IMG/VR virus record: IMGVR_UViG_3300000553_000051
Coordinates: 1-54,947 of that record
From: a virus
DNA: 54,947 bases
Strand: one strand, 5' to 3'
Shown: positions 8,473-53,631 of the stretch, piece after piece
Layout of the letters: every line of letters begins with the position of its first letter
Position numbering within the stretch: position 1 is the first letter of the stretch
The notes under the pieces: model-generated
Told to the model about the DNA's origin: nothing
Seen by the model: only the letters and a program-made list of their open reading frames with translations
The model's database searches: none
Made by a program: the position numbers and the translations under genes

Positions 8473-9414
8473 ATGATAAATAAATTTGATTACGATGATA
8501 TCAATTTAATTCCTCGTTATAGTACGGTTGATAGTAGAAGTGAGTGTGATACAAGTGTACAACTTGGTAAATTCAGATTCAAAAATCCTGTCATTCCTGC
8601 TAATATGGAATCTGTTATGAATGAAGAATTAGCCATGAAATTAGCAAAGAGTGGCTATTTCTATGTCATGCACAGATTTGGTACTGATAATAAACAATTT
8701 ATTATCAATATGAAAAAAGAAAAATTGGTGACATCAATATCACTTGGTGTTAATCAAGATTCTTATGCTCTATTAAAAGAATTGGTCGAAGAAAAATTAG
8801 TACCAGATTATATCACAATTGATATTGCGCATGGACATTGTAAAAAAATGAAAAAAATCTTACAATTCATAAAAGGAAATTCAATAGATAGTTTTATCAT
8901 TGCTGGTAATGTTTCCAGCATCGAAGCAACTGAAGATTTAGATAATTGGGGTGCTGATGCAATTAAAGTGGGGATTGGATCTGGGTCGGTTTGTACGACA
9001 TATCCAACAACAGGTTTCGGAAGTAAAAATATACAAGCATCTATTGTAAATGAATGTACCAGTGTAACCAAAAAATCCATTATTGCTGATGGTGGCATTA
9101 AATCACCAGCAGATATAACAAAATCAATTGTTCTTGGTGCATCTATGGTCATGGTTGGTGGATTAATGTCAGCATTTCTAGATTCACCAGGTAGAATTGT
9201 TGAAATTGATGATGTTAAATATAAAGAATTTTATGGCTCTGCATCATCAAGACAAGGAAATATCAATAGAATTGAAGGAACTGTAAAATTGAATAAATTG
9301 AAAAATGTAACTAATGTTGAATATTTAGATTATTTGACTGAATGTTTACAATCAGCAATTAGTTATGGTGGTGGAAAAAAATTAGAAGATTTATATTCAG
9401 TAAGGTGGATTTAA
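8473..9414 (+). CDS. IMP dehydrogenase/GMP reductase family enzyme
   Basis: 313 residues, a TIM barrel of the IMPDH/GMPR family: FDYDDINLIP at the start, PVIPANMESV, then the flexible loop IGSGSVCTTYPTTGFG whose Cys at about residue 174 would form the covalent adduct with the purine nucleotide, and IIADGGIKS. No CBS domains, and shorter than typical IMPDH (about 490) or GMPR (about 345). GMPR-like activity (GMP to IMP, NADPH) or IMPDH-like activity is possible; the loop does not decide. It would change guanine nucleotide supply during infection. It sits inside the SNSSSSSF array, 3 and 1 bases from its neighbours. Confidence 0.88.
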   Translation: MINKFDYDDINLIPRYSTVDSRSECDTSVQLGKFRFKNPVIPANMESVMNEELAMKLAKSGYFYVMHRFGTDNKQFIINMKKEKLVTSISLGVNQDSYALLKELVEEKLVPDYITIDIAHGHCKKMKKILQFIKGNSIDSFIIAGNVSSIEATEDLDNWGADAIKVGIGSGSVCTTYPTTGFGSKNIQASIVNECTSVTKKSIIADGGIKSPADITKSIVLGASMVMVGGLMSAFLDSPGRIVEIDDVKYKEFYGSASSRQGNINRIEGTVKLNKLKNVTNVEYLDYLTECLQSAISYGGGKKLEDLYSVRWI

Positions 9415-14234: not shown

Positions 14235-14309
14235 ATGTATCGTAATTTATATATAGAGTGTATTAATGAAATGAACAATATTGATGATGAATCAAAATTG
14301 ACTGGATAA
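14235..14309 (+). CDS. leader peptide 1 (24 residues)
   Basis: ATG at 14235 opens 24 codons ending ESKLTG, with the TAA (14307-14309) at the end of segment 1 of the attenuator that follows. The position of the stop, repeated at 15.5 kb, suggests a regulatory leader and not a functional protein. Confidence 0.45.
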   Translation: MYRNLYIECINEMNNIDDESKLTG

Positions 14310-14366
14310 TATCTGTGCATATGGCATTTGAAAAACCCAGTCAATCAAAAAATGACTGGGTTTTTT
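14298..14366 (+). promoter_or_regulatory. attenuator-like module 1
   Basis: Three segments: TTGACTGG (14298), CCAGTCAA (14337) and TGACTGGGTT plus T-run (14353). Segment 2 can pair with segment 1 (8 bp) or with segment 3 (10 bp, AACCCAGTCA/TGACTGGGTT followed by T6, a normal terminator). The two pairings exclude each other. A ribosome ending the leader peptide would cover segment 1 and so favour the terminator. Confidence 0.6.
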
Positions 14367-14369
14367 GTT

Positions 14370-14567
14370 ATGGAACAAGAAAAGAAAATACAAGAAAATT
14401 TTGAAGAGCTAAAAAAACAATCAGAACTAACAGATAAATTTGTAAAACTCGTTGACCAACTTAAAATAGATGATAAAGATATTCCAAAAACTGAAAAAGG
14501 TCTAAATACAAAAGTTAAAGAATTGATGCAGAGATTAGAAAAGAAAATAGATAAATCAAAAGAATGA
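14370..14567 (+). CDS. small coiled-coil protein
   Basis: 65 residues from ATG 14370, just after the terminator T-run. A longer frame would start inside the hairpin and is rejected. Almost wholly charged helix (EQEKKIQENFEELKKQSELT...). Its stop overlaps the next gene. Expression would depend on read-through of the terminator. Function unknown. Confidence 0.65.
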   Translation: MEQEKKIQENFEELKKQSELTDKFVKLVDQLKIDDKDIPKTEKGLNTKVKELMQRLEKKIDKSKE

Positions 14568-14920
14568 TGAAAATATTAGAATATAAAGAATATCAGGAAC
14601 AAGAACTTTTAGAAATGGCAAATGTTACTGATAAAACAACTGGAATTCAAGATATTATATTATGGATAGGACCAAATCCTGGACAACATTGGAAAAGAAT
14701 TAAAGTTTGTAATTTGAAAAATACTTTTGATATGTCTGATTGTTTTACACTTACAATACCAAATTTCAAAATAATAGGTGAAGTAAACACAAAGTTAATA
14801 ACAACAGAAATATTAGAAAAAATAAAAGAATTTGTAAATATTAATTATCAAGTAATTTGTGATTATTCTGATTATAAAATATCAACAAAGGATTTTTTAG
14901 AAAATTTGAAAAAAATATAA
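14567..14920 (+). CDS. unknown protein with MKILEYKEY start
   Basis: 117 residues (a second ATG three bases upstream is possible). It begins MKILEYKEYQEQELLEMA, of the MKxIxxFxE type that recurs at 38-49 kb. The body has an alpha/beta pattern and ends DFLENLKKI. It lies immediately before the first tRNA. Function unknown. Confidence 0.72.
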   Translation: MKILEYKEYQEQELLEMANVTDKTTGIQDIILWIGPNPGQHWKRIKVCNLKNTFDMSDCFTLTIPNFKIIGEVNTKLITTEILEKIKEFVNINYQVICDYSDYKISTKDFLENLKKI

Positions 14921-14929
14921 AAATATATC

Positions 14930-14999
14930 GCGAGGAGGTTGCTGGCTACCCTCAAGGCTCATAACCTTTGATTACATCAGTTCGATTCTGATCCTCGCT
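14930..14999 (+). tRNA. tRNA-Met/Ile2 (CAT anticodon)
   Basis: Acceptor GCGAGGA/TCCTCGC is perfect. Anticodon loop CTCATAA in a stem CAAGG/CCTTT, T-arm ATCAG-TTCGATT-CTGAT. The D-arm is short. CAT could be Met or, if C34 is modified, Ile. No CCA is encoded (T then ACA follows). First tRNA of the cluster. Confidence 0.75.
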
Positions 15000-15015
15000 A
15001 CAAAATAAATATAAA

Positions 15016-15405
15016 ATGAACATAATTAATGAATTTAATATTTTTAAACATAATTTGTTGCTTGAATTTGCACAAATAACGAATAAAAATGATTTTTTTT
15101 ATCAAAATTATGGAAAAATAAAAGTGTATGGCGGCGGAGAAGATGGAAATATAACCCCCGGAGAACATAATCCTCCTCATTTTCATATAGAAATGAATAA
15201 TGTTGAAATTCAGGTAATTATACCATCTAATATTGATGATGAATTAAAAACAATAAATGGAGAATTAAATAGCAAATTGATAAAGGATTTAAGAAAATGG
15301 TTTAAAATGCCATTTAAAACTGATAGAAATAAAAATAATTATGAAGCATTAAAAGAGTATTGGAATACTCTTAATGATGGTGATGAAAATGTAAATAAAA
15401 TATAA
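15016..15405 (+). CDS. DUF4160-like protein with tag-like N-terminus
   Basis: 129 residues. Residues 36-100 (YGKIKVYGGGEDGNITPGEH, NPPHFHIEMNNVEI) match the DUF4160 pattern with its HPPHFH-like core. DUF4160 proteins are small and linked to toxin-antitoxin and regulatory loci, without settled function. The N-terminus MNIINEFNIFKHNLLLEFAQ resembles the MKxIxxFxE module plus the ELLEMA segment of the preceding gene. Sits between the first tRNA and the second attenuator. Confidence 0.7.
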   Translation: MNIINEFNIFKHNLLLEFAQITNKNDFFYQNYGKIKVYGGGEDGNITPGEHNPPHFHIEMNNVEIQVIIPSNIDDELKTINGELNSKLIKDLRKWFKMPFKTDRNKNNYEALKEYWNTLNDGDENVNKI

Positions 15406-15415
15406 AAAATAAAAA

Positions 15416-15529
15416 ATGAGAAACTATTGTTACATACTTGAAATGTTAATTTCAAATCTGAACTTTGTTCAGATATGTGATTATCGCAACATTAATATTA
15501 ATGATGAGGATACTATGCGAACTGGGTGA
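15416..15529 (+). CDS. leader peptide 2 (37 residues)
   Basis: ATG at 15416 opens 37 codons ending TMRTG, with TGA at 15527-15529 at the end of segment 1 of the second attenuator. It is also rich in Asn, Ile, Asp and Tyr/Cys codons, several of which are read by tRNAs coded downstream. Confidence 0.45.
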   Translation: MRNYCYILEMLISNLNFVQICDYRNININDEDTMRTG

Positions 15530-15583
15530 GTTATAAAAAACTTGATTTTTTACCAACCCAGTTCTGAAAAGACTGGGTTTTTT
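15520..15583 (+). promoter_or_regulatory. attenuator-like module 2
   Basis: AACTGGGT (15520), ACCCAGTT (15556) and ACTGGGTT plus T6 (15572). Segment 2 pairs with either flank over 8 bp, so an antiterminator and a terminator exclude each other. Downstream lie about fifteen tRNA genes with no other clear promoter before 16.29 kb, so this element may set their transcription. Confidence 0.65.
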
Positions 15584-15632
15584 GTTTATAATAGAATTTA
15601 GGTTCTTTGACATCTTGGAAATTAAAATAAAT

Positions 15633-15651
15633 GGTGGGTTGACTACCCACC
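15633..15651 (+). other. stem-loop before tRNA
   Basis: GGTGGGT-TGACT-ACCCACC, a perfect 7-bp stem 5 bases before the tRNA-Glu 5' end. There is no T-run, so an RNA-processing role is more likely than termination. Confidence 0.5.
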
Positions 15652-15656
15652 AAAAT

Positions 15657-15742
15657 GCTCGATTCGGCTAGCGGTCCAGGCTCCCAGAATTTCAATCTGG
15701 CGTGGAGTAATCCACTCAGGGGTTCGAATCCCCTATCGAGTA
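15657..15742 (+). tRNA. tRNA-Glu(TTC) with an expanded variable arm
   Basis: Acceptor GCTCGAT/ATCGAGT (G1:U72), Glu-like D-arm (TTCGGCTAGCGGTCCAGG), perfect anticodon stem CCAGA/TCTGG with loop ATTTCAA, T-arm AGGGG-TTCGAAT-CCCCT. The variable region is 17 bases and forms GTGGA-GTAA-TCCAC, a class-II-like arm capped by a GNRA loop. Glu tRNAs are normally class I with a 4-5 base variable loop. Confidence 0.75.
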
Positions 15743-15821
15743 CGAAAATAAAGAAAACTTGCAGCAACTTAAAAAAATGAACTGTCAATTCAATAAAATG
15801 TTTTCTGTTTTCATTAAAATT

Positions 15822-15888
15822 GCCAACGAGCAGGTGCAAGCCAGGTCTGTAAAACCTTTGCTAGGGGGTTCGAAACCCTCCGGTGGCA
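15822..15888 (+). tRNA. shortened tRNA, anticodon GTA (Tyr) by loop position
   Basis: Acceptor GCCAACG/CGGTGGC with one A.G mismatch, loop CTGTAAA in stem AGGT/ACCT, T-arm GGGGG-TTCGAAA-CCCTC. Only 67 bases, because the D-arm is reduced to a 2-bp stem. With U33 fixed the anticodon is GTA. A Thr(TGT) reading needs C33 and is less likely. It may be non-functional. Confidence 0.5.
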
Positions 15889-15897
15889 CAATAAATA

Positions 15898-15944
15898 CCA
15901 TCTGGTGGTGTAATGGATGCATATCACTCTGTCACAGTGAAGGT
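15898..15944 (+). tRNA. 5' portion of a tRNA-Asp (GTC), truncated
   Basis: A D-arm-like segment and a perfect anticodon arm TCACT-CTGTCAC-AGTGA (anticodon GTC) are present, but no T-arm or 3' acceptor follows. The sequence runs straight into the next tRNA. It looks like a deletion fusion of two tRNA genes. Confidence 0.4.
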
Positions 15945-16020
15945 TTCGCATAGTGGCAATTGCGGGGGTCTGTAAAACCTCTCTCTTTCGAGTCCAGTAG
16001 TTCGAGTCTACCTACTTCCA
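15938..16020 (+). tRNA. tRNA-Tyr(GTA), class II
   Basis: D-stem CGC/GCG, anticodon arm GGGGT-CTGTAAA-ACCTC (GTA), a long variable arm with CTC-TTTC-GAG as expected for Tyr, T-arm GTAG-TTCGAGT-CTAC, 3' acceptor TACTTCC. The 5' acceptor (TGAAGGT) pairs at only 4 of 7 positions because it is shared with the truncated tRNA before it. Function doubtful. Confidence 0.5.
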
Positions 16021-16030
16021 CAAAAAATTT

Positions 16031-16103
16031 GGGTTATTGGTGTAGTGATTAACATAACTGACTGTCGCTCAGTGGATCACGGGTTTGAGTCCCGTATAAC
16101 CCG
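16031..16103 (+). tRNA. tRNA-Asp(GTC)
   Basis: 73 bases. Acceptor GGGTTAT/ATAACCC perfect, anticodon arm ACTGA-CTGTCGC-TCAGT, T-arm ACGGG-TTTGAGT-CCCGT, discriminator G as usual for Asp. An intact canonical gene. Confidence 0.9.
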
Positions 16104-16119
16104 CCTGTGTTTGTTTTTT

Positions 16120-16153
16120 ATGATTTTGTTTCAGCCGAAAAAATCAAAATCAT
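16120..16153 (+). other. spacer stem-loop between tRNAs
   Basis: ATGATTTTG ... CAAAATCAT, a perfect 9-bp inverted repeat with a 16-base loop between the tRNA-Asp and tRNA-Cys genes. It could guide processing of the precursor. Confidence 0.4.
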
Positions 16154-16158
16154 TACAT

Positions 16159-16244
16159 GACAGAATGCTAGAGTGGTCTATTGGCGCAGCCTGCAAAGCT
16201 GATCGGGGAGCAATCCTGCGTGAGTTCGAATCTCACTTCTGTCT
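16159..16244 (+). tRNA. tRNA-Cys(GCA) with an expanded variable arm
   Basis: Acceptor GACAGAA/TTCTGTC perfect, anticodon loop CTGCAAA, T-arm GTGAG-TTCGAAT-CTCAC. The variable region forms GGGA-GCAA-TCCT with a GNRA loop. Cys tRNAs normally have a short variable loop. Confidence 0.75.
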
Positions 16245-16289
16245 CTTTTGGAAAACTTTGTAAAACCAGAAAAAATAGAGTTCGATATT

Positions 16290-16301
16290 TTTATATATAG
16301 A
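16290..16301 (+). promoter_or_regulatory. TTTATATATAG late-type promoter candidate
   Basis: The motif lies 14-25 bases before the HNH endonuclease ATG. This gives the endonuclease its own transcription within the tRNA cluster. Confidence 0.4.
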
Positions 16302-16314
16302 ATAAAAATGTTTT

Positions 16315-16971
16315 ATGAAAAAGTTAAAAACTAAAATTTTAGAATTGAGAGATAAACATAAGTCCTATAATGAAATCGCAAAAATATTAAATTGTGCTAA
16401 AAGCACAATATCATATCATTGTAAGAATTTAAATATCAAATTAAAGGAAAGTGAAATTAAAAAGTCTGAAATAATTGATTTTTATAATAAAAATAAAAAT
16501 TTTAGAGAAACGGCTAGATATTTCAATCTTACAAGATATAAATTGGGTAAAATATTAGGAATACCATTTAATCCTAAAAAATCAAATTGTGTAATTTGTG
16601 GTAATGAAATAATATCATCTATAAGTACTAAAAAATGTTGTTCAGATAAATGTAGAAGAAAATTTAGATTAAATTATTTTAAATTAAATAATTATCAATA
16701 TGATAAATTAGTAATATGGAGAAAAAATAAAAAATTAAAGGCAATTGAATATAAAGGTGGAAGTTGTCAAATTTGTGGATATAATAAATGTGAAAATTCA
16801 TTATCTTTTCATCATATTGAACCTGATAAAAAAGATTTTAGTATAAGTTCAAATATAAATTGGTCATTTGAAAAAATAAAAAATGAATTAGATAAATGTG
16901 TTTTGGTGTGTATGAATTGTCATGGTGAAATTCATAGTGGATTACATTCAGAATTTTTAAAATTAAAATAA
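16315..16971 (+). CDS. free-standing HNH homing endonuclease
   Basis: 218 residues. N-terminal helix-turn-helix-like segment (SYNEIAKILNCAKSTISYHC), a first zinc pair CVICGNE...CCSDKCRR, then an HNH core: CQICGYNKC, LSFHHIEPDKKDF, CVLVCMNCHGEIH. HNH homing endonucleases cut intronless or unmodified alleles and spread by repair. Its place between tRNA genes is typical of such insertions; the group I intron at 20.1 kb is a possible partner but is 3 kb away. Confidence 0.88.
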   Translation: MKKLKTKILELRDKHKSYNEIAKILNCAKSTISYHCKNLNIKLKESEIKKSEIIDFYNKNKNFRETARYFNLTRYKLGKILGIPFNPKKSNCVICGNEIISSISTKKCCSDKCRRKFRLNYFKLNNYQYDKLVIWRKNKKLKAIEYKGGSCQICGYNKCENSLSFHHIEPDKKDFSISSNINWSFEKIKNELDKCVLVCMNCHGEIHSGLHSEFLKLK

Positions 16972-16973
16972 AT

Positions 16974-17059
16974 GCCGTCATGAGTAGAGTTGGTTATTAC
17001 GGAGGTCTCATAAACCTTTCAACCATAGTGTTGCGGTGGTTCAAATCCACCTGACGGTA
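16974..17059 (+). tRNA. tRNA-Met(CAT) with an expanded variable arm
   Basis: Acceptor GCCGTCA/TGACGGT (G1:U72), anticodon arm (G)AGGT-CTCATAA-ACCT(T), variable stem CAAC-CATAGT-GTTG, T-arm GGTGG-TTCAAAT-CCACC. Second CAT tRNA of the cluster; one may be read as Ile2. Starts 2 bases after the endonuclease stop. Confidence 0.75.
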
Positions 17060-17071
17060 CAAATTAAAAAT

Positions 17072-17144
17072 GGGCTCTTAGTATAACTGGTTAGTATGGA
17101 TGACTGATACTCATTCGATCCTGAATCATCCTCAGGAGAGCCTA
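17072..17144 (+). tRNA. tRNA-Ile(GAT) with odd T-loop
   Basis: Acceptor GGGCTCT/AGAGCCT (G1:U72), anticodon arm GATGA-CTGATAC-TCATT. The T-stem CCTGA/TCAGG is perfect, but the loop is ATCATCC and lacks the TTC motif. Loss of the conserved T-loop makes folding uncertain. Confidence 0.65.
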
Positions 17145-17150
17145 CAGAAA

Positions 17151-17224
17151 CCTGATGTGGCGCAATTGGTCAGCGCAGGACCCTTATAAGGTCAAGGTTG
17201 TTGGTTCAAGTCCAGCCATCAGGA
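17151..17224 (+). tRNA. tRNA-Ile(TAT)
   Basis: Acceptor CCTGATG/CATCAGG perfect, D-arm GCGC-AATTGGTCA-GCGC, anticodon arm GGACC-CTTATAA-GGTC, T-arm GTTGG-TTCAAGT-CCAGC. Reads ATA, a codon that is abundant in this AT-rich phage and often rare in hosts. Intact. Confidence 0.9.
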
Positions 17225-17255
17225 CTAAGGAGAAACGGACTCCAACCAAAAAATA

Positions 17256-17366
17256 GTCGTGACTGATGGAGAGACATCAAAATTTCGTGCTGTACCGAGA
17301 CACACTGATAATGTGGATATTCGTTGGTGAGTGGAAGATAAAGGTTCAAATCCTTTCTGCACGACA
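17256..17366 (+). tRNA. tRNA-like gene, atypical fold
   Basis: T-arm AAAGG-TTCAAAT-CCTTT and 3' acceptor GCACGAC are clear. The 5' acceptor may be GTCGTGA at 17256 (6 of 7 pairs, D-like arm TGATG/CATCA, 111 bases in all) or TCGTGC at 17285 (no D-arm, 82 bases). A hairpin CACA-CTGATAA-TGTG would give anticodon GAT. The two folds cannot be resolved by eye. Confidence 0.4.
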
Positions 17367-17371
17367 AAAAT

Positions 17372-17458
17372 GTTTGGTTAATCAAGTGGTCGAAGATATT
17401 ACGCTGTTAACGTAACGAGACGCAAGTCCCATCGTGGGTTCGAATCCTACACCAAACG
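17372..17458 (+). tRNA. tRNA-Asn(GTT) with an expanded variable arm
   Basis: Acceptor GTTTGGT/ACCAAAC and anticodon stem TTACG-CTGTTAA-CGTAA are perfect, D-stem ATC/GAT, T-arm GTGGG-TTCGAAT-CCTAC. The variable arm GAC-GCAA-GTC (GNRA loop) and the D-loop AAGTGGTCGAA are class-II-like, unusual for Asn. Confidence 0.75.
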
Positions 17459-17465
17459 CAAAATT

Positions 17466-17524
17466 GGTCAGTTGCCGTAGTGGCCAAACGGTCCGTGCCA
17501 CCCTGAAATTTCGGCTGTTAACCC
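17466..17524 (+). tRNA. tRNA 5' fragment
   Basis: GGTCAGT acceptor-like, D-stem CCG/CGG, then an arm with CTGTTAA (GTT). No T-arm or matching 3' acceptor follows. Probably a remnant. Confidence 0.3.
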
Positions 17525-17583
17525 AAATAAAAAATAAAGGATATTCAGATATAGTAAATAATATACAATAAAGACACCAAAAA

Positions 17584-17721
17584 GGGAAAGTAGCTCAGTT
17601 GGTAGAGCAGCGTTAAAAAAGATGTAATCTGTTGATACAAAAAATATCTTAAAGATTATTAACCGCACTTACAAAAAGCATGTAAAGCCGTGTGTCAGTC
17701 GTTCGAATCGATTCTTTCCCC
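17584..17721 (+). tRNA. tRNA interrupted in the anticodon region
   Basis: Canonical acceptor GGGAAAG/CTTTCCC, D-arm GCTC-AGTTGGTA-GAGC and T-arm AGTCG-TTCGAAT-CGATT, but 138 bases long. About 62 extra bases sit in the anticodon arm and can be closed by GCGTTAA...TTAACCGC. The original anticodon cannot be assigned. It could be an insertion, a degenerate intron, or a pseudogene. Confidence 0.5.
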
Positions 17722-17759
17722 ACAGAGATTAAAGAAAACTTCCAGCCAAAATAAAATCA

Positions 17760-17828
17760 GGCTCTGTAGTTTAGTCGGTAAAACCTATTCGCAAGTGTAG
17801 ATCCTTGGTTCGAGTCCAAGCGGAATCA
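17760..17828 (+). tRNA. tRNA, anticodon unclear
   Basis: GGCTCTG/CGGAATC (6 of 7 with wobbles), perfect D-stem GTTT/AAAC, T-arm CTTGG-TTCGAGT-CCAAG. The anticodon arm CTAT...GTAG has a loop of 8 (TCGCAAGT), so no anticodon is assigned. 69 bases, about 4 short. Flanked by AAGAAAAC/GTTTTCT inverted repeats. Confidence 0.45.
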
Positions 17829-17855
17829 AAAAAATGTTTTCTGTTCTCTTTAATA

Positions 17856-17936
17856 CCAGCACCCGCAGGCGCAAACCCGTAGAAGGATACTATATATATT
17901 GTATATGAAAGAAGGTTCAATTCCTTCGATGCTGGC
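17856..17936 (+). tRNA. tRNA-like, anticodon unclear
   Basis: CCAGCAC/ATGCTGG (one mismatch) and T-arm GAAGG-TTCAATT-CCTTC. The interior contains an AT-rich hairpin (ATAC...GTAT) that does not give a normal 7-base loop. Preceded by an ATGTTTTCTGTT spacer also found at 15.8 kb. Confidence 0.4.
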
Positions 17937-17954
17937 TTTTTTATTTGGAAAAAA

Positions 17955-17967
17955 TTTAATATATTTA
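17955..17967 (+). promoter_or_regulatory. TTTAATATATTTA late-type promoter candidate
   Basis: The motif lies 4-17 bases before the ATG at 17972. Confidence 0.35.
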
Positions 17968-17971
17968 TAAA

Positions 17972-18187
17972 ATGAGTATAGTAGAAAATAGGTTAAGAGT
18001 AGAAGCAGAAATTCTAAAGAAGATCAAAAGGGAAATTCTTAAGAGTGCTAAGAAAGGTGATGTGCATTATTATTGGGAAACAACTGGTTTAAGTGATTCT
18101 ATGGTAAGAAGCATTGTTACTCAATTGGAAGAAGATAAAAAAATGGTAAAAAGCAAAGGACCTAATTATAAGATAATTAGGTGGTAA
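17972..18187 (+). CDS. small winged-helix-like DNA-binding protein
   Basis: 71 residues: helix (RLRVEAEILKKIKREIL), then YYWETTGLSDSMVRSIVTQLEEDKKMV and KGPNYKIIRW, the order helix-turn-helix plus wing. Such small wHTH proteins are usually transcriptional regulators. It lies inside the tRNA cluster. Assignment rests on pattern only. Confidence 0.6.
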   Translation: MSIVENRLRVEAEILKKIKREILKSAKKGDVHYYWETTGLSDSMVRSIVTQLEEDKKMVKSKGPNYKIIRW

Positions 18188-18430
18188 TTATTTCTTTTTT
18201 AGAATTTTTATAATAATATCTTCTTTAATAATGATTAATGAATCTTTTTTAAGAATAAGTTTACTGATGCTATCATCTTGTTTTATTGCGACAGTATTTA
18301 TTTTTGCTGATTCTTGATTTTGTTTTATTATACGGCTATTTGATCCGAAATAATCAATTACATAGATACTAATTGTAAATAAGCAGAAAAATAATATAAA
18401 ATAAATTGTTTGTTCATAAACTTTTTTTAT
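18188..18430 (-). CDS. possible membrane protein without ATG start
   Basis: An open frame of about 80 codons with one transmembrane segment (YFILFFCLFTISIYVI) followed by a charged tail ending in IIIKILKKK. The only upstream start-like codons are ATA/ATT. An ATG two codons into another frame stops early, so a single indel may hide the real start. It is directly convergent with the wHTH gene. Confidence 0.35.
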   Translation of the reverse strand: MKKVYEQTIYFILFFCLFTISIYVIDYFGSNSRIIKQNQESAKINTVAIKQDDSISKLILKKDSLIIIKEDIIIKILKKK

Positions 18431-18452
18431 TCTATATATAAAAAAATAATAC

Positions 18453-18546
18453 TTGGTGTTGGAGAAATGGCGTATTCCGAAAAAGAATACTTAACTCGTC
18501 CCGGAGACTTGCGGGAAGATAGGTGGTTCGATTCCATCACACCATA
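18453..18546 (+). tRNA. class-II-like tRNA, anticodon unclear
   Basis: Acceptor TTGGTGT/ACACCAT (first pair mismatched) and T-arm GGTGG-TTCGATT-CCATC. It contains GTATTC-CGAAAAA-GAATAC (perfect stem, no U33) and a long arm CCCG...CGGG. The loop could be read CGA/GAA but U33 is missing. It may be a Ser, Leu or Phe gene with an inserted hairpin. Confidence 0.45.
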
Positions 18547-18742
18547 CTGAAAGAAGAGTTACATATAACAATAACCAAGGTTTTAAATATCGTTTATTAG
18601 TGCCTTATAAAGTTCATTATACTTTAAAATGATGTTTCGGTTCGTTTCGAAGGTAAATATACCCCAGAATTGACCTTACACTATAAAAAAACGATTTTGT
18701 GCTTAGATTCAAGAAAACAAAAACTACAAAATAATAAATAAC
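18547..18742 (+). other. intergenic stretch, no gene seen
   Basis: About 195 bases with no ORF over 30 codons and no tRNA. GGTTCGTTTCGAAGG-type short palindromes only. Probably the leader of the small genes that follow. Confidence 0.4.
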
Positions 18743-18916
18743 ATGGATGAACATTTAAGAATGAATTTTGAGAATTATGATGAATATTGTCGTAATATGC
18801 ATGAATGTGAATTTTACATAGAATGGTTGAATATTGATGAATTTATTGAAAGATTAGAAACAGATGAAAAGTTCAGAAAAGAATGGTCGATAATGAATGA
18901 AAAATCACAAATATAG
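18743..18916 (+). CDS. small acidic protein, 57 residues
   Basis: ATG 18743 to TAG 18914-18916. Charged and helical (NFENYDEYCRNMHECEFYIE ... RLETDEKFRKEW). Short, but the codon use is like its neighbours and it overlaps the next small gene in the usual way. Function unknown. Confidence 0.55.
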   Translation: MDEHLRMNFENYDEYCRNMHECEFYIEWLNIDEFIERLETDEKFRKEWSIMNEKSQI

Positions 18917-19028
18917 AATAGGTGAATTTGTTATGATTAAATCTCTTAAGTGGTATAAGAGTAATCATGATAGTTTTGGTAACATTTTGTGCTATGAATA
19001 TTACGGCATCTCTCTAAAAATCGAGTGA
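18897..19028 (+). CDS. small protein, 43 residues
   Basis: ATG 18897 to TGA 19026-19028, overlapping the previous gene by 20 bases. The sequence YRIGEFVMIKS...GNILCYEYYG has the pattern of a small beta-barrel. Ends just before a promoter box. Function unknown. Confidence 0.5.
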   Translation: MKNHKYRIGEFVMIKSLKWYKSNHDSFGNILCYEYYGISLKIE

Positions 19029-19034
19029 CTTTAT

Positions 19035-19042
19035 TATCTTTG
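19035..19042 (+). promoter_or_regulatory. Bacteroidota-type promoter (TATCTTTG)
   Basis: TAnnTTTG box 8 bases before the ATG at 19051, so the message would be nearly leaderless. Confidence 0.55.
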
Positions 19043-19050
19043 TTCCTGCA

Positions 19051-19346
19051 ATGAGTGTTTATTGTGGCCTGAAAGCGGAAATTATAGATTACACAAGAAG
19101 AGGATATCACATTAATATTATAGATAAAAATAAACCAAAGAATGGTTTTATCGGGTGGGAATGGAGTGATGAAATGTTTGAAAGTATTAGTAGTATAAGA
19201 AAAAACCTGCGTTATTACCTGGCCAGCATCTTCGACGGCTTGCCCACGTTGAATATGAATACCTTACACATTGGATTCATAGCCGAGGTATTGTTTATTG
19301 GTATTATCCCAAGAAATTAAAAAAACTGAAAAAGAAATCAGAATAA
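19051..19346 (+). pseudogene. frameshifted small gene with KKLKKL tail
   Basis: The frame from ATG 19051 reads through about 60 sensible residues (VYCGLKAEIIDYTRRGYHIN...), then switches in quality near 19232. The +1 frame from there continues RRLAHVEYEYLTHWIHSRG... and ends YPKKLKKLKKKSE at TAA 19344-19346, giving the shared basic tail. One single-base change restores a protein of about 98 residues. The uninterrupted frame would instead stop at 19320. Confidence 0.6.
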
Positions 19347-19354
19347 AAAAAATT

Positions 19355-19828
19355 ATGAAATTTGGATTATATACATTGCAAATAGAGTCAACATTAACAA
19401 AAATTCCAATTTATCAACGTATTTTTGATTTTGGTTGGGGAAATGGTTATGTTTTATTGCCACACAATCATCCTTTTTATGGAAAGCATTATGATGATAT
19501 AGGTGTTGTTGCACATGGTGGATTAACTTTTAGTGATTATTTGATGCTAAATCATTTTTTAGAATGGATAGGTGATAGAGAATTTGATGGTGATGTGACT
19601 TTAGAAAACTATAAAAAATTTGACAAATGGTGGATGATAGGTTTTGATACTGCGCATGCTGGTGATGATTCATATGTTTGTTCTAAGGAATTTGTTATAA
19701 ATGAGACTCATGAAATGATTGAGCAATGTTTATCAGATGATATTAAAGGAATGAATTTATATAAAGCAATTTATTTAAGGAAAGATAAATTGAAATTAAT
19801 TAATGCCTCTATGAGTTGTAATGAATAG
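19355..19828 (+). CDS. unknown protein with RKDKLKLIN tail
   Basis: 157 residues from ATG 19355 (MKFGLYTLQ), preferred to an upstream in-frame start that lies in the previous gene. It has a Gly/His-rich segment (LLPHNHPFYGKHYDDIGVVAHGG) and WMIGFDTAHAGDD, seen in phage proteins of unknown role. The YLRKDKLKLINAS tail is followed by six residues that are coded inside the tRNA-Arg gene. Confidence 0.75.
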   Translation: MKFGLYTLQIESTLTKIPIYQRIFDFGWGNGYVLLPHNHPFYGKHYDDIGVVAHGGLTFSDYLMLNHFLEWIGDREFDGDVTLENYKKFDKWWMIGFDTAHAGDDSYVCSKEFVINETHEMIEQCLSDDIKGMNLYKAIYLRKDKLKLINASMSCNE

Positions 19829-19878
19829 CATTTAGCGCTTCGAACGCTAAGGTGGGGGTTTGATTCCCTCTAGGGGTA
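19805..19878 (+). tRNA. tRNA-Arg(TCG) overlapping a CDS
   Basis: Acceptor GCCTCTA/TAGGGGT (G1:U72 and one G.U), perfect anticodon arm TTAGCG-CTTCGAA-CGCTAA, T-arm GGGGG-TTTGATT-CCCTC. The first 24 bases are also the last codons and stop of the preceding CDS, on the same strand. Confidence 0.7.
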
Positions 19879-19888
19879 CAATTGCGAG

Positions 19889-19913
19889 GAAGGTTCGAAT
19901 CCTTCTAGGCATA
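19889..19913 (+). tRNA. orphan tRNA 3' end
   Basis: T-arm GAAGG-TTCGAAT-CCTTC plus TAGGCATA right after the tRNA-Arg. No anticodon arm of its own. A leftover of a lost tRNA. Confidence 0.4.
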
Positions 19914-20046
19914 TAAAAAATTTAATTTCCAAGATGAATGGCATCTTTGCTGAAATGAATTATAGCAACTTTGGTAGAAAGTATAAGGTGAGTGGCAAGA
20001 CAATAAAAAATGGCTAAATTATTTTTTTATATTAAAAACTTTTTTG

Positions 20047-20054
20047 TATATTTG
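20047..20054 (+). promoter_or_regulatory. Bacteroidota-type promoter (TATATTTG)
   Basis: TAnnTTTG box 20 bases before the intron-bearing tRNA-Leu. Confidence 0.6.
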
Positions 20055-20073
20055 TATTATAAAATTTAAGTAT

Positions 20074-20368
20074 GCCGATGTGTTGTAATTGGTAGCCAAG
20101 ATGGACTTGTGTAAATGATTGAAAATGAGTGCTTTAAGGGAAACTTTAAATGTAGAATGCTTCAAATTCGGTGAATTCTTTAAAATGATAACGCCGAGCC
20201 AAGCTTCAGAAATGAAGAAGGTGTAGAGACTTGACGGAGCATACCTAAGTCAAAATTGATATGGTAAAGGCAAAGCCCAGACTACAAACAGAAATGGTAG
20301 TGAAAACTATAGTAGTAAGAAAATCCATTGGGAGCAATCCCGTGCCGGTTCGAGTCCGGCCATCGGCA
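20074..20368 (+). tRNA. tRNA-Leu(TAA) interrupted by a group I intron
   Basis: 5' exon 20074-20108: acceptor GCCGATG, D-arm with GTAATTGGTAGCC, then ATGGACTT. 3' exon 20320-20368: AAAATCCAT, variable arm GGGA-GCAA-TCCC, T-arm GCCGG-TTCGAGT-CCGGC, acceptor CATCGGC. Joining gives stem ATGGA/TCCAT with loop CTTAAAA, anticodon TAA, a class II Leu tRNA. The break lies after U34, the same site as in the tRNA-Leu(UAA) introns of cyanobacteria and plastids. Reads TTA, a major codon in an AT-rich genome. Confidence 0.85.
20109..20319 (+). ncRNA. group I intron in tRNA-Leu(UAA)
   Basis: 211 bases, with no ORF inside. It follows T34 and ends in G, as group I introns do. GAGT at 20128-20131 can pair with the exon end ACTT (U.G at the splice site) as P1. 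Core elements in order: a Q-like segment AACGCCGAGCCAAGC, an R-like segment GTGTAGAGACTTGACGG and an S-like segment AGCCCAGACTACAAA, close to those of trnL introns (subgroup IC3 in known cases). Small and probably self-splicing. Confidence 0.82.
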
Positions 20369-20434
20369 CAAATGAATAAAATTAATATTAAACTATGAAA
20401 ATAGATTTCCAATATACTTGGAAATAAAAATATT

Positions 20435-20596
20435 ATGAAAGAACTTACCGCAGAAGAAATGATTGTTCAGATGAATGCTCAACTTAGAGAAGTTGAAGAG
20501 CATATTGATAATGAAGAAAATGAAACTATTACTAGGTTAGATTCTGAAATTAAGGAGTTGACTGCGATAGAAAAAAAAGATGATTTAGGATTTTAA
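20435..20596 (+). CDS. small coiled-coil protein, 53 residues
   Basis: ATG 20435 to TAA 20594-20596. One long charged helix (MIVQMNAQLREVEEHIDNEE...). One base separates it from the next ATG. Function unknown. Confidence 0.6.
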   Translation: MKELTAEEMIVQMNAQLREVEEHIDNEENETITRLDSEIKELTAIEKKDDLGF

Positions 20597-20597
20597 T

Positions 20598-20867
20598 ATG
20601 GATAACATAACAGAAGAAGATTACAAAAAAGCACTTAATACAGTTGCTTTATACGAGTATCATTTAAGAGATACAAAACAAGTTTCGGTAACTTATAAGG
20701 CTGAGGTTTCTGTAACTGTTCAAGTTCCAAATAATTGGACAAATGAAAAAATATTGAAAGAATTAGAAGGTGGTGCATATCACGGATTAGAGCAGGATAG
20801 TGAGGAAGGGATTAATTTTGGTGAAATTGTTGAATTGATTGTTGCTGGTAAAGAGATAATATTATAA
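20598..20867 (+). CDS. unknown small protein
   Basis: 89 residues with a beta pair in the middle (QVSVTYKAEVSVTVQVP) and an acidic end. No family name. It follows the preceding coiled-coil gene by one base. Confidence 0.7.
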   Translation: MDNITEEDYKKALNTVALYEYHLRDTKQVSVTYKAEVSVTVQVPNNWTNEKILKELEGGAYHGLEQDSEEGINFGEIVELIVAGKEIIL

Positions 20868-20904
20868 TGTTGGAGAAATATTTATATTGTTCACAAATAT
20901 ACGA

Positions 20905-20923
20905 TGTTCACGTATCGTGAACA
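20905..20923. promoter_or_regulatory. palindromic operator-like site
   Basis: TGTTCACG-TAT-CGTGAACA, a perfect 8-bp inverted repeat, with another TTCAC half-site at 20890. No T-run follows, so it is more likely an operator or RNA stem before the gene at 20951 than a terminator. Confidence 0.45.
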
Positions 20924-20950
20924 CAAAAAAAATAAAAATAATAATAAATT

Positions 20951-21922
20951 ATGGAAACTCGTCATATTAATAATCTTCAAAAAATTGAAGATTTTTTAAC
21001 ACAATACTCAATTCCTTTTACTAAGACAGATAATATATTTTATCTTAATAATAACACTTTTGAAATTCGCTATGTTGATAGTGAAAATCATAAAATGGAT
21101 TATGAAAAACGGTTTGGTATAAAGGGTATTCCCCACAATTATTTCATTAACATTACTAAGGATAACAAAGCGAAAGGAATTCGAACAATGTGGATTAAGG
21201 ATTGGGAATGTGAAGAAACTAATGATTTTAAAACTGCTGAAGGTATTGAAATTACTAATTATCCGCGTAAATGGAATGTACTTCAGTCTTATATCAAAAC
21301 TGCTACAGGTAAGATTGAAAATAGATTTTATGCTAGAGAGTGTGAGATAAGAGAAATTACTAATCAGGAACTTAAACCTTTTCTGTTAGAAAATTGTTTT
21401 TATGGCTACAGAAGTTCTAATACTAATTTAGGCTTATTTAATAAAAAAGAAAAAAATGGTATTAACGCCGGTACACTGTTGATGATCTATACCTTCGGAC
21501 ACCCATTTTTTGGCAAAGGTTTATACGATGTAGAAATTATCAGAGTAGCCACTAAACTTAACTGCCAAGTGATTGGCGGTTCAAGTAAATTACTTAACAA
21601 TTTTATACTTAACTATCCAACACTTACTATTGCAGGTAAAGTCATAAATGTTAATAAAATCGTTTTTTTGGTGGATGCCGATCATAACGATGGTAAGTCT
21701 CTTGATACCTTAGGTTTTACTTTTGTTAGTCATAAAGATAATGGCTTCATGAATGTAGATGTAGCTACTGGTAAAGTAACTCACAGAGACCCTATGCATC
21801 ACAAAATGATTATGGAGAAAATGGCTAAGGGTGAAATGTATAGTGTTGCTAATTCTGGCACTATTATCTATACCATAGATAAAAACGAATACCTTAAAAA
21901 AATAAAGATAGAAAAAACTTAG
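20951..21922 (+). CDS. Hef-like homing endonuclease/Mom-type domain protein
   Basis: 323 residues. The N-terminal third has a Vsr-like pattern ending in GIRTMWIKDWE. Then RFYARECEIREI leads into ENCFYGYRSSNTNLGLF, TLLMIYTFGHPFFGKG, VIGGSSKLLNNFI and DADHNDGKSLDTLGF, the order seen in the C-terminal half of phage Hef-type homing endonucleases and in stand-alone Mom-like (GNAT-fold) proteins. The role could be homing or DNA modification. The N-terminal catalytic residues are not certain. It carries no intron itself and follows the intron-bearing tRNA gene by 0.6 kb. Confidence 0.65.
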   Translation: METRHINNLQKIEDFLTQYSIPFTKTDNIFYLNNNTFEIRYVDSENHKMDYEKRFGIKGIPHNYFINITKDNKAKGIRTMWIKDWECEETNDFKTAEGIEITNYPRKWNVLQSYIKTATGKIENRFYARECEIREITNQELKPFLLENCFYGYRSSNTNLGLFNKKEKNGINAGTLLMIYTFGHPFFGKGLYDVEIIRVATKLNCQVIGGSSKLLNNFILNYPTLTIAGKVINVNKIVFLVDADHNDGKSLDTLGFTFVSHKDNGFMNVDVATGKVTHRDPMHHKMIMEKMAKGEMYSVANSGTIIYTIDKNEYLKKIKIEKT

Positions 21923-21945
21923 TAAAAAATAATACTATATATAAT

Positions 21946-22001
21946 ATGAAAAATTTATCAAATATGGTTCAACAACAACAGATGTAAATCTGATTGGGTG
22001 A
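21946..22001 (+). CDS. possible leader peptide 3 (frame uncertain)
   Basis: From ATG 21946 the frame stops after 13 codons. The neighbouring frame reads KFIKYGSTTTDVNLIG and stops at TGA 21999-22001, inside segment 1 of attenuator 3, exactly like leader peptides 1 and 2. One missing A in the run after the ATG would join start and end. Confidence 0.3.
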
Positions 22002-22047
22002 ACTATATCTTTTTTAACCCAATCCTGCAACGGTTTGGGTTTTTTTC
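21992..22047 (+). promoter_or_regulatory. attenuator-like module 3
   Basis: GATTGGGT (21992), ACCCAATC (22017) and TTGGGTT plus T6 (22035): segment 2 pairs with segment 1 (8 bp) or with segment 3 (7 bp terminator). Same layout as modules 1 and 2. Downstream are one small gene and three tRNA-Gln genes. Confidence 0.6.
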
Positions 22048-22063
22048 TTTAAAAATTAGAATT

Positions 22064-22273
22064 ATGAATAAGGGTAGAAGAAATGAATTGACAAGGTTGA
22101 AGTTTAAAAAAAGACTTGAACAATTAGGACTAAAACAAGAAGATGGAAATTTGTTTTGTTATAAAACAAGTGGTAAACCTTGTAGTTGTGAAATGTGTTC
22201 TCCATATAAATATAAGAGAACAGAGAAGCACAAAGGAAATTTTGAAGAGAATTTTGAAGAGAATGAAGAATAA
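22064..22273 (+). CDS. HicA-like small basic protein
   Basis: 69 residues from ATG 22064, after the terminator. RRNELTRLKFKKRLEQLGL, then CYKTSGKPCSCEMCSPYKY: this RRKxxxRRxxxLxLxxxxxYCYxTSGKPCSCxMCS arrangement is common in small phage and host proteins of unknown role, with a probable Cys4 zinc site. The HicA comparison is weak. It lies in the attenuated unit with the tRNA-Gln genes. Confidence 0.55.
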   Translation: MNKGRRNELTRLKFKKRLEQLGLKQEDGNLFCYKTSGKPCSCEMCSPYKYKRTEKHKGNFEENFEENEE

Positions 22274-22280
22274 AGAATAT

Positions 22281-22355
22281 TGCTACATAGCGCAATTGGT
22301 TTAGAGCGTCAGATTTTGAATCTGAAGGTTGAAGGTTCAAGTCCTTCTGTGGCAA
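22281..22355 (+). tRNA. tRNA-Gln(TTG)
   Basis: Acceptor TGCTACA/TGTGGCA (one U.G), D-arm GCGC...GAGC, anticodon arm TCAGA-TTTTGAA-TCTGA, T-arm GAAGG-TTCAAGT-CCTTC. Intact. Confidence 0.9.
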
Positions 22356-22364
22356 CAAATAAAA

Positions 22365-22435
22365 TGCTCTATAGCATAATGTAGTGTGTCACCCTTTGAA
22401 GGTGGTCGGTATAGGTTCAAGTCCTGTTAGAGCAA
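22365..22435 (+). tRNA. second tRNA-Gln(TTG)
   Basis: Acceptor TGCTCTA/TAGAGCA perfect, anticodon arm TCACC-CTTTGAA-GGTGG, T-arm ATAGG-TTCAAGT-CCTGT. The D-arm is less regular than in its neighbours. Confidence 0.75.
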
Positions 22436-22440
22436 CAAAT

Positions 22441-22514
22441 TGTTCAGTAGCATAATTGGTTTGTGCAACTGCCTCTGAAGCAGAAGGTTGAAGGTTCGAC
22501 CCCTTCCTGAACAG
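22441..22514 (+). tRNA. tRNA-Gln(CTG)
   Basis: Acceptor TGTTCAG/CTGAACA perfect, anticodon arm CTGC-CTCTGAA-GCAG, T-arm GAAGG-TTCGACC-CCTTC, discriminator G. Third Gln tRNA in a row. Confidence 0.85.
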
Positions 22515-22569
22515 CAAAAATAAACTTTTTTTTAAAAAAAGAAATACAAATTAAAAAACAATTAAAATA

Positions 22570-23286
22570 ATGACTAATCTTTTAATACCATCGTTATGGC
22601 ACATTGCTGGATCAACTCCATGTGAAGATATTGAGCATGCTGGAAATTCTCCTCAGGGTGGAGTTTGTAATTTTCAAACAGAAGAAGTAAGTTTAACTGA
22701 GAATTTTTTTACTTTTGGTAATTCTAAAAAAACTAATACTGCTTGGTATAGAGGTGAAGGTGATTGGATTTGGCGGCAGAGAACAAGAGAATATCAAGGT
22801 GGATCTATTACTTCTATAAATAAATATGGTTTTGGAAAATATACTTTAGTGGCTAAAGTTCCTCAGTTTAGAGGATCTTGGCCTGCATGGTGGTTTATTG
22901 ATTGGACTGATAAATCTCAAGGTGGAATGGGTATGCCACCTGAAATTGATGCATTAGAACAAATGATAAAAAAATGTTGGGATAGATACAAAATAAGTCC
23001 AGGTTTTATTTATGGTAATTCCTATGCTAATAGTACTGATTTTATTAAATCTGTATGGAGATGGAAAAGGTGGGATAAAGATTTTCACACCTTTGTATTA
23101 ATTTGGAAGACAGATAGTTTAGAAGTTATTTATGACAATAAATCAATTTGGACAATTACGAATCATTCAATTATTCCACAAGGAACTATGAATATGATTT
23201 TAAATTCGGGGTTTGGTAATTGGAATCCAGATGAAAAAAATTTCAATTCACTTGAAATAAAGAGTCTTTCTTTTGAAGAGATTTAA
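22570..23286 (+). CDS. GH16 family glycoside hydrolase
   Basis: 238 residues, the size of a single GH16 jelly-roll domain. GKYTLVAKVPQFRGSWPAWW is the usual approach to the active site, and PPEIDALEQM at 123-132 gives the catalytic ExDxxE (Glu125, Asp127, Glu130). GH16 enzymes cut beta-1,3/1,4-glucans, agar, carrageenan and similar polysaccharides. No signal peptide, so it could be a virion depolymerase for host capsule or released at lysis. It follows the last tRNA by 55 bases. Confidence 0.85.
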   Translation: MTNLLIPSLWHIAGSTPCEDIEHAGNSPQGGVCNFQTEEVSLTENFFTFGNSKKTNTAWYRGEGDWIWRQRTREYQGGSITSINKYGFGKYTLVAKVPQFRGSWPAWWFIDWTDKSQGGMGMPPEIDALEQMIKKCWDRYKISPGFIYGNSYANSTDFIKSVWRWKRWDKDFHTFVLIWKTDSLEVIYDNKSIWTITNHSIIPQGTMNMILNSGFGNWNPDEKNFNSLEIKSLSFEEI

Positions 23287-47401: not shown

Positions 47402-47572
47402 ATGAGACGAAAAACAAAAACAGAATTATCTATATCATTAGATGATAGCATCATTAAAATTTTGAATGAAGAATTTGAAAATCGTTCAAAATTTATTGAA
47501 TATTGTATTATAAAAGAATTAGAAAACAATGATGTATTTAGAAAAAGAATTGAAAAATCAATTATATTTTAA
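47402..47572 (+). CDS. ribbon-helix-helix (CopG-like) protein
   Basis: 56 residues from ATG 47402, chosen because the promoter lies in the longer frame. TELSISLDDSIIKILNEEF and NRSKFIEYCIIKELENN give strand-helix-helix. The last base of its stop is the first base of the endonuclease ATG, so it is likely a regulator co-expressed with that gene. Confidence 0.75.
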   Translation: MRRKTKTELSISLDDSIIKILNEEFENRSKFIEYCIIKELENNDVFRKRIEKSIIF

Positions 47573-52938: not shown

Positions 52939-53631
52939 ATGAAATGGAGAAAATTTATGCATAATTGCTTTGCTGCAAATAATGAAGCTTGGTCAGGTGT
53001 GACTAGTATGAGCGGTTTGACTAGTGATTTATATTATCATTATTCTAAACTTAGCGCACATTGGAAATTATCTGGTGAAACATTAGCAACAGCTTCTAAA
53101 CCAATATTTACAGATTCTGATACAACTTCAATTGTTGTTACTCCTGCTACTACTTATCAATATTCAGGACTCACTAGACAACTTGTAGTTGTTAATCAAG
53201 ACGCAGTTGACGTAATTACTGAATGTTTATTCGATAGTGGTGATTCTACAGTGTGTACCGTAAACACAGCAGGTCTTGTGACTATTGTTTATACTGGAAC
53301 AACAATTATTACAGTAACTCATAATGATGGACCTACTGGTACTACAACTGTTATTGGTTACTGGCCTGGTCCAGTTACAATTACACCGCTTACTGCAACT
53401 GGTATAACTGGAACAACATTACAATTCACATTAACTAGTGCAACTGGTAAAAATCTCACTACGTTAGCATCTTGGTCTAGTAGTACATCTGGTGTAACTA
53501 TTGGTGCAGCTACTGGTTTAGCAACTATTGCAGCACATGCAGGTTCAACTGCAAATATTACAGCAACTTATGGAACTTTAACTGGTACTCCTTATGCACC
53601 TGTAAGAACTTTAACAATAACTGGTTCTTAA
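52939..53631 (+). CDS. Ig-like virion protein
   Basis: 230 residues, extremely rich in Thr, Ser, Gly, Ala and Val. After a non-repetitive start (MKWRKFMHNCFAANNEAW), two Ig-like (Big_2-type) beta domains: about 60-140 (LVVVNQDAVDVITECLFDSG, STVCTVNTAGLVTI) and 145-228 (TGTTLQFTLTSATGKNL, TIGAATGLATIAAHA). Codon use is more regular than in neighbours, as in abundant structural genes. Such proteins decorate heads or tails. Own late-type promoter and strong terminator. Confidence 0.78.
   Translation: MKWRKFMHNCFAANNEAWSGVTSMSGLTSDLYYHYSKLSAHWKLSGETLATASKPIFTDSDTTSIVVTPATTYQYSGLTRQLVVVNQDAVDVITECLFDSGDSTVCTVNTAGLVTIVYTGTTIITVTHNDGPTGTTTVIGYWPGPVTITPLTATGITGTTLQFTLTSATGKNLTTLASWSSSTSGVTIGAATGLATIAAHAGSTANITATYGTLTGTPYAPVRTLTITGS

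Follow-up and report, generated by a model that had tools for sequence, protein, structure and literature searches.

Ribosome-mediated attenuators of the trpL, hisL and pheST type control amino-acid biosynthetic and synthetase operons, and T-box riboswitches, which have a conserved RNA fold, bind uncharged transfer RNA (tRNA) directly and choose between a terminator and an antiterminator. Here we describe three modules of related design in a virus genome record, IMG/VR IMGVR_UViG_3300000553_000051, whose full 54,947 bases we call the window. Each module combines a short leader open reading frame (ORF) with three RNA segments, of which segment 2 can pair either with segment 1, near the end of the leader, or with segment 3, forming a terminator that is followed by a T-run. 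The design recurs in other phages, where the leaders are rich in codons for the amino acids of the tRNA genes downstream. Judged from sequence comparison, each module is very probably a ribosome-mediated, codon-specific transcription attenuator of the tRNA genes behind it.

The modules share with the trpL, hisL and pheST type a short leader that carries regulatory codons, antiterminator and terminator hairpins that exclude each other, a terminator with a T-run, and codons placed so that a stalled ribosome would favour the antiterminator. They differ from that type in that their predicted targets are tRNA genes, in having three segments rather than four, in that many leaders are multi-amino-acid and match a mixed array, and in segment 1, which falls within the leader ORF or at its end. 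Like T-boxes, they would act on tRNA supply through a choice of terminator or antiterminator, but their specificity would be carried by a translated leader. A T-box riboswitch was rejected as an explanation, the family having no match in the window at Rfam gathering scores, nor up to an E value of 1 in positions 14850-22600, a region that begins downstream of module 1.

Papers are cited here by PMC number, and what is said of each refers to the portion of its text that was available. The theory of ribosome-mediated attenuators has been treated previously (PMC1183508). In the leader-peptide attenuators of antibiotic-resistance genes (PMC6851288, PMC4191407), as proposed for the phage modules, ribosome stalling on an upstream ORF decides termination; there a drug stalls the ribosome, whereas the phage codons match downstream tRNA genes. 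A study of phage tRNAs and host tRNA cutting, which concerns anticodon-loop mutations (PMC10264068), deals with the same genes and the same proposed need to replace depleted host tRNAs, and its available main text contains none of attenuat-, leader, terminator or promoter. The stem 'attenuat' is also absent from the available main text of PMC7162821, the source of the Mahaphage group, and the available part of an attenuator survey (PMC2965389) has 0 occurrences of 'trna gene' and of 'phage'. The portion of PMC13288928, on phage phi38:1, holds nothing bearing on the modules. In the available parts of the open-licence literature, a scope that mostly excludes subscription journals, no tRNA genes were found to be described as under leader-peptide attenuation.

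The three modules of the window

Fourteen terminators were counted in the window, and only three of the 14, those of modules 1 to 3, have a strong competing upstream segment. In a terminator listing that covers both strands, segment 1 scores 12-14 in these modules and at most 8, or is absent, in the remaining eight rows. Segments 1, 2 and 3 and the T-run are present at all three sites, and segment 1 pairs without G-U pairs. The features are as follows, with pairing given in base pairs (bp) and distances in nucleotides (nt).

14235..14309, + strand: module 1 leader ORF, MYRNLYIECINEMNNIDDESKLTG and stop, chosen by the fixed leader rule given below
14297..14305, + strand: module 1 segment 1, 9 bp with 14337-14345; nascent 1:2 helix -15.2 kcal/mol
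14332..14364, + strand: module 1 terminator (segments 2, 3, T-run), -21.4 kcal/mol with segment 1 masked
14930..15000, + strand: sequence that by eye resembles tRNA-Met(CAT), in the interval from module 1 to module 2; no ARAGORN call and no Rfam match up to E 1
15416..15529, + strand: module 2 leader ORF, MRNYCYILEMLISNLNFVQICDYRNININDEDTMRTG and stop
15519..15527, + strand: module 2 segment 1, 9 bp with 15556-15564; nascent 1:2 helix -15.8 kcal/mol
15555..15579, + strand: module 2 terminator (segments 2, 3, T-run), -13.1 kcal/mol with segment 1 masked
15657..17459, + strand: tRNA array behind module 2, Glu(ttc), Tyr, Asp, Cys, Met, Ile(gat), Ile(tat), Asn (ARAGORN, Rfam)
21946..21987, + strand: module 3 leader ORF, MKNLSNMVQQQQM and stop; Gln codons CAA CAA CAA CAG; stop 4 nt before segment 1
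21992..21999, + strand: module 3 segment 1, 8 bp with 22017-22024; nascent 1:2 helix -10.5 kcal/mol
22016..22041, + strand: module 3 terminator (segments 2, 3, T-run), -11.2 kcal/mol with segment 1 masked
22281..22515, + strand: three tRNA-Gln genes (TTG, TTG, CTG) behind module 3 (ARAGORN, Rfam)

An earlier note on this DNA, made from the letters alone, had proposed the three modules. Its segments and terminators stand, as do its leaders for modules 1 and 2. Its module 3 leader, a frame ending in NLIG, was rejected since that frame has no ATG, and the start-bearing leader is MKNLSNMVQQQQM. This leader is followed by its terminator, a small ORF and then tRNA-Gln(TTG), tRNA-Gln(TTG) and tRNA-Gln(CTG), and it was this Gln leader before three tRNA-Gln genes that suggested that leaders spell the tRNAs behind them. 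Each of the seven amino acids of the called array behind module 2 (E, Y, D, C, M, I, N) occurs in the module 2 leader; within that array the tRNA-Tyr gene matches Rfam only below the gathering score. In the module 1 leader, these seven amino acids make up, by hand count, 16 of the 23 residues after Met.

Leader codons and downstream tRNA genes

The correspondence is most easily seen in leaders of other modules. MRTILIIKKKKRDAIPIKIE precedes four tRNA-Lys genes, MTTSFQQQQQQQINRTD four tRNA-Gln genes, and MNNILHINLLNSLCLLGIKLIG, which uses all six Leu codons, five tRNA-Leu genes. Mixed leaders precede mixed arrays: MKNLTNIFWHFHF... stands before His and Phe tRNAs, MKTIAMIIRMRIIRPKMLG before Arg, Ile and Met, MKNLVNIQPQPQQHPQGC before Pro, Pro, His, Gln, His and Gln, and MKAMILSLCLSLSLSLQKLG... 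before Leu, Leu, Ser, Cys, Ser, Ser, Leu and Leu.

Leaders were chosen by a fixed rule that is blind to the tRNAs and takes the longest ATG ORF ending near segment 1. The set began with 107 modules. A called tRNA lies within 500 nt in 80 of them, and the other 27, among them module 1 of the window, were dropped before the counts. Removal of near-duplicates left 46 modules, which were grouped into 26 families by hand-written peptide patterns. This grouping contains two errors, in that L018 8071, an Asp/Tyr/Gln leader, was placed with Pro/His/Gln, and L031 8569 (Trp/His/Phe) with Phe/Ile/Gln; each represents its family as the first row, and the 26 therefore lack the true Pro/His/Gln and Phe/Ile/Gln leaders, which the 46 include. 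The calls themselves depend on ARAGORN, which overlooks some tRNA genes.

The rule found an ATG leader in 46/46 nonredundant modules. Across the 26 families the fraction of cognate residues is 0.447, compared with 0.243 when tRNA sets are permuted among modules (0/100,000). The leader holds every downstream tRNA amino acid in 24/26 families, and 114/116 tRNA amino acids are present in their own leader, against a permuted mean of 80.3 and a maximum of 100 in 100,000. The 46-module set gives the same outcome (223/227). The signal is confined to the leader frame, the other two frames and the reverse strand giving 0.21-0.22.

Leaders at near-tRNA terminators that were not found by motif behave similarly. 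In 49 such leaders the cognate fraction is 0.350 against 0.175 permuted, and 146/164 amino acids are present, compared with a permuted mean of 99.5 and a maximum of 124 in 50,000. The subset whose segment 1 falls below the cut comprises 29 leaders with 72/87 (permuted maximum 67 in 50,000), and the window and named genomes alone provide 31 leaders with 97/101 (permuted maximum 86 in 50,000). Permutation within genomes covered 58 modules in 12 genomes, including pattern-found modules and with G006 repeating three modules of W01, and gave 0.376 against 0.190 and 174/192 against a maximum of 152 (0/20,000). The codon match survives this permutation, which removes genome composition as its cause. 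For Arg, Leu and Ser, 120/142 leader codons belong to a codon box for which a tRNA is encoded downstream, compared with 101 expected from other modules with the same amino acid, and this lends mild support to isoacceptor specificity of the leaders.

Segment pairing, codon position and rival explanations

The cuts for terminators and for segment 1 (score 12) were set in this analysis. Terminators under score 10 (under 12 in the comparison of own with other upstream sequences), or too near the end of a stretch, were left out of the counts, and pattern-found modules were removed from the 22-source count below, from the own-versus-other comparison and from the test of non-motif leaders. Over the whole LR756504 record, eight terminators have an ARAGORN tRNA within the next 400 nt, and segment 1 scores at least 12 in 7/8 of them, compared with 1/163 in the rest of the genome (Fisher p = 8.5e-11); shuffling the upstream sequence gives an expectation of 0.07 of the 8. 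In the tRNA regions of 22 sources, 26/59 near-tRNA terminators are positive for segment 1, against 11/224 others (p = 1.8e-12). Of these 11, five have a tRNA 555-764 nt downstream (G005, G009, G010, G011, G015), one is module 1 of the window, and the other five, named below, lack a tRNA within 2 kb in the fetched stretch. For 47 non-motif near-tRNA terminators the mean pairing score is 11.3 with their own upstream sequence and 6.9 with the upstream sequences of others (0/20,000), and a score of 12 is reached in 19/47 modules compared with 1.3% of mismatched pairs. The 1:2 pairing is kept while its letters change.

Four motif scans of IMG/VR, made with neither a leader nor a tRNA term, returned 106 stretches, many of them near-copies of one another, and 68 have a tRNA within 500 nt downstream (16/23, 11/22, 39/41 and 2/20 by motif). 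The motif of the first scan, TTGGGT, is the only one that was also run on cellular genomes. The 16/23 viral stretches with a tRNA within 500 nt compare with 0/36 cellular stretches, one of which has a tRNA at 3.6 kb.

Codon position was examined in the 46 modules. Leader codons starting 15-30 nt before segment 1 are 70% cognate, 2.8 times expectation, and those in the last 15 nt before it are 53% cognate. The value falls to 24% (1.0 times expectation) in the first 15 nt from the segment 1 start and to 17% (0.7 times) over the 15 nt after that. The leader stop is found -7 to +41 nt from the start of segment 1, with a median of +21. The footprint of a stalled ribosome puts its front edge about at segment 1 when it is stalled at the cognate peak, so segment 1 would stay free, and because the stops lie at a median of +21, full translation would cover or melt it. 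The codons are thus placed such that stalling would free the antiterminator strand and completed translation would block it. A TAnnTTTG box, which we take to be a Bacteroidota promoter element, lies within 80 nt upstream of the leader in 21/46 modules, against 2.5 expected from shuffles.

While the leader, the mutually exclusive helices, the terminator, the codon-tRNA match and the codon position are seen directly in the sequence, we infer termination, stalling, read-through and the physiological trigger. A ribosome would trail RNA polymerase along the leader, a short ORF in which codons of the downstream tRNAs are frequent. When these tRNAs are plentiful in charged form it would reach the stop and keep segment 1 from pairing, leaving segment 2 to make the terminator with segment 3, and the tRNA genes would remain silent. 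Should one cognate tRNA become scarce, because the host tRNA is cleaved or out-competed or because demand is too high, the ribosome would stall about 15-30 nt before segment 1, which could then pair with segment 2; no terminator would form and the tRNA cluster would be transcribed. In the window, Gln codons would be the signal for module 3 and the three tRNA-Gln genes its target; the signal for module 2 would be the codons of the mixed Glu/Tyr/Asp/Cys/Met/Ile/Asn array, and module 1, with nearly the same codon set, would sit in tandem ahead of module 2.

The attenuator interpretation is supported, and the polarity given by the earlier note, in which a stalled or absent ribosome frees segment 1, the terminator is blocked and tRNAs are made, fits the comparative evidence. 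That note took general translation quality to be the signal and missed the codon specificity of the leaders, from which it would follow that the supply of the downstream tRNAs is what is sensed. A general sensor, in which any stalled or absent ribosome gives read-through and the codon content of the leader is irrelevant, would use the same helix competition, and an untranslated leader would likewise free segment 1; we nevertheless consider it improbable, as it predicts neither the match to particular downstream tRNAs nor the cognate peak before segment 1. The opposite polarity, in which a ribosome stalled on cognate codons covers segment 1, favours termination and turns the tRNA genes off in scarcity, could draw on the codons within 15 nt of segment 1, about half of which are cognate. 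The peak lies further upstream, where a stall would free segment 1, and from the start of segment 1 on cognate codons are no longer in excess; such feedback would also worsen the shortage, and we find this account barely credible. The helices might instead be sites at which tRNA precursors are processed, or they might simply terminate the upstream gene, with the leaders as small genes of another role. The terminators do lie a short way upstream of the tRNAs, often less than 50 nt, and the phi38:1 annotation has one leader region as a hypothetical gene, but the codon match, its loss in other frames, the codon position and the kept 1:2 pairing are all left unexplained, which makes such an account very unlikely.

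Several observations weigh against codon-specific attenuation. The earlier note held that its reading would be refuted by relatives that keep the terminator while losing segment 1, and this is seen only in part: 33/59 near-tRNA terminators fall below the segment 1 cut of 12, yet 29 leaders of such sites match their tRNAs. Many of the below-cut sites have cognate leaders, and some (in W05, G010, G015 and the Cellulophaga phage phi38:1) resemble plain terminators. Two below-cut modules both score 10: one of the two modules of phi38:1, and the eighth near-tRNA site of LR756504, whose leader has Tyr and Gln codons before Tyr, Tyr and Gln. Five segment-1-positive sites (L023, L025, L027, L036 and L249 minus strand) have no tRNA within 2 kb in the fetched stretch, and the GAGGGT motif lies before tRNAs in only two of its 20 stretches, one of them (L166, 410 nt) doubtful. 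The scanned tRNA arrays of crAss001, T5, PaBG and Karimac have no such module. Beyond +30 nt there are 8 leader codons only, 4 of them cognate, and the expectation by position is thin there. Folding at full length prefers the 1:2 helix in module 2 and the terminator in modules 1 and 3, so that in the latter two the choice would have to fall during transcription, as kinetic antitermination.

Codon-specific attenuation would extend beyond the window. We think it reasonably likely that phage tRNA clusters in several lineages are on-demand operons, each with a codon sensor, and that the leader of a mixed array acts as an OR gate, whereby a shortage of any one tRNA would turn on the whole set. If so, a phage could detect and repair host tRNA loss or cleavage during infection, the leaders would list, per amino acid, the shortages for which it is prepared, and leaders with several kinds of codon would serve as natural multi-input sensors of how well tRNAs are supplied. 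The presence of the module in cultured phages (phi38:1, phi40:1 and Calle_1 to 3) makes these ideas directly testable.

Distribution and neighbouring sequence

The design recurs in 634-735-kb phages, in 72-kb Cellulophaga phages and in many IMG/VR contigs of up to 365 kb; hosts are on record for the isolates only. A gp32-like protein of the window (53695-54645) is 41-48% identical to counterparts in the 634-735-kb phages LR756504, LR745206, LR756502 and LR756501, which we take to be the Mahaphage group. Contig G015 carries MKNMVYNINDCIYNDKRKMLIG before Ile, Cys, Ile, Asp, Asn, Lys and Asn, resembling modules 1 and 2, and MNFRIENMIQEQMQQMDNLIG... before Glu, Met, Gln and Gln, resembling module 3. 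In the isolate phi38:1, MKTIMNIATDIRTKGVKLLGRSRVL (segment 1 score 13) precedes Lys, Ile, Gly, Met, Asp, Thr, Val and Arg, and MKTNMTYNNFSWYSNCSFSSYNVERLYLS, the below-cut module mentioned above, precedes Ser, Ser, Asn and Phe; the terminators of these two leaders lie near 35,411 and 36,912 of record NC_021796, and two further near-tRNA terminators of this phage look ordinary. The MKTIMNIATDIRTKGVKLLGRSRVL leader lies inside the annotated hypothetical gene gp066, and phi40:1 and Calle_1 to 3 share the 251-nt stretch that holds it at 99% identity or more.

In LR756500, 0/4 near-tRNA terminators reach the segment 1 cut. The one such terminator of Lak-A1 also falls short (0/1, score 11); its leader has H, P, R, C, M and G before His, Pro, Arg and Arg, which is suggestive only. 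PTm1 had no tRNA match, and the two pieces of DAC15 that were fetched have no near-tRNA terminator. BLAST of the modules and tRNAs against phages gave mostly tRNA genes among the matches listed (15 of 293 and 15 of 481 records). Three modules without a called tRNA downstream in the stretch, at L023 near 10478, L025 near 11755 and L036 minus strand near 11015, have the leaders MKTMTINNRNRLTDII, MKTLHTYKNVIDWM and MLQRFDMHMIAKFSGKSSLG, respectively, and may have either undetected tRNAs or other targets.

Around module 2, positions 15602-15743, which span the spacer and tRNA-Glu, have a sub-threshold match to Rfam RF02956 'DUF2693 RNA' (30.2 bits, gathering score 81.3, E 0.008). An extra tRNA-Ile at 18453-18547 was called by ARAGORN and not by Rfam. 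Two sequences look tRNA-like by eye, 15823-15893 and 17586-17722, the latter with an insertion; neither has an ARAGORN call or an Rfam match up to E 1. At 20071-20370 a tRNA gene is apparently split by an insertion that resembles a group I intron by eye and has no Rfam intron match up to E 1. Within it, 20126-20326 shows 88.6% identity with LR756501, and a 44-base match to the crAss-like phage cr111_1 has 93.2% identity.

The small protein encoded at 22064-22273, after the module 3 terminator and before the tRNA-Gln genes, led to one distant locus, in the 12-kb stretch L002, where its relative is 62% identical; ARAGORN finds no tRNA in that stretch. The protein directly upstream of module 3 (20951-21922) and that at 47572-48660 match PHROG HNH or homing endonuclease families. 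Elsewhere in the window, 49539-51953 encodes an 804-residue protein that has leucine-rich repeats and matches PKD more weakly, and other domains are Big_2 (52939-53631), glycosyl hydrolase 16 (22570-23286) and IMPDH (8473-9414).

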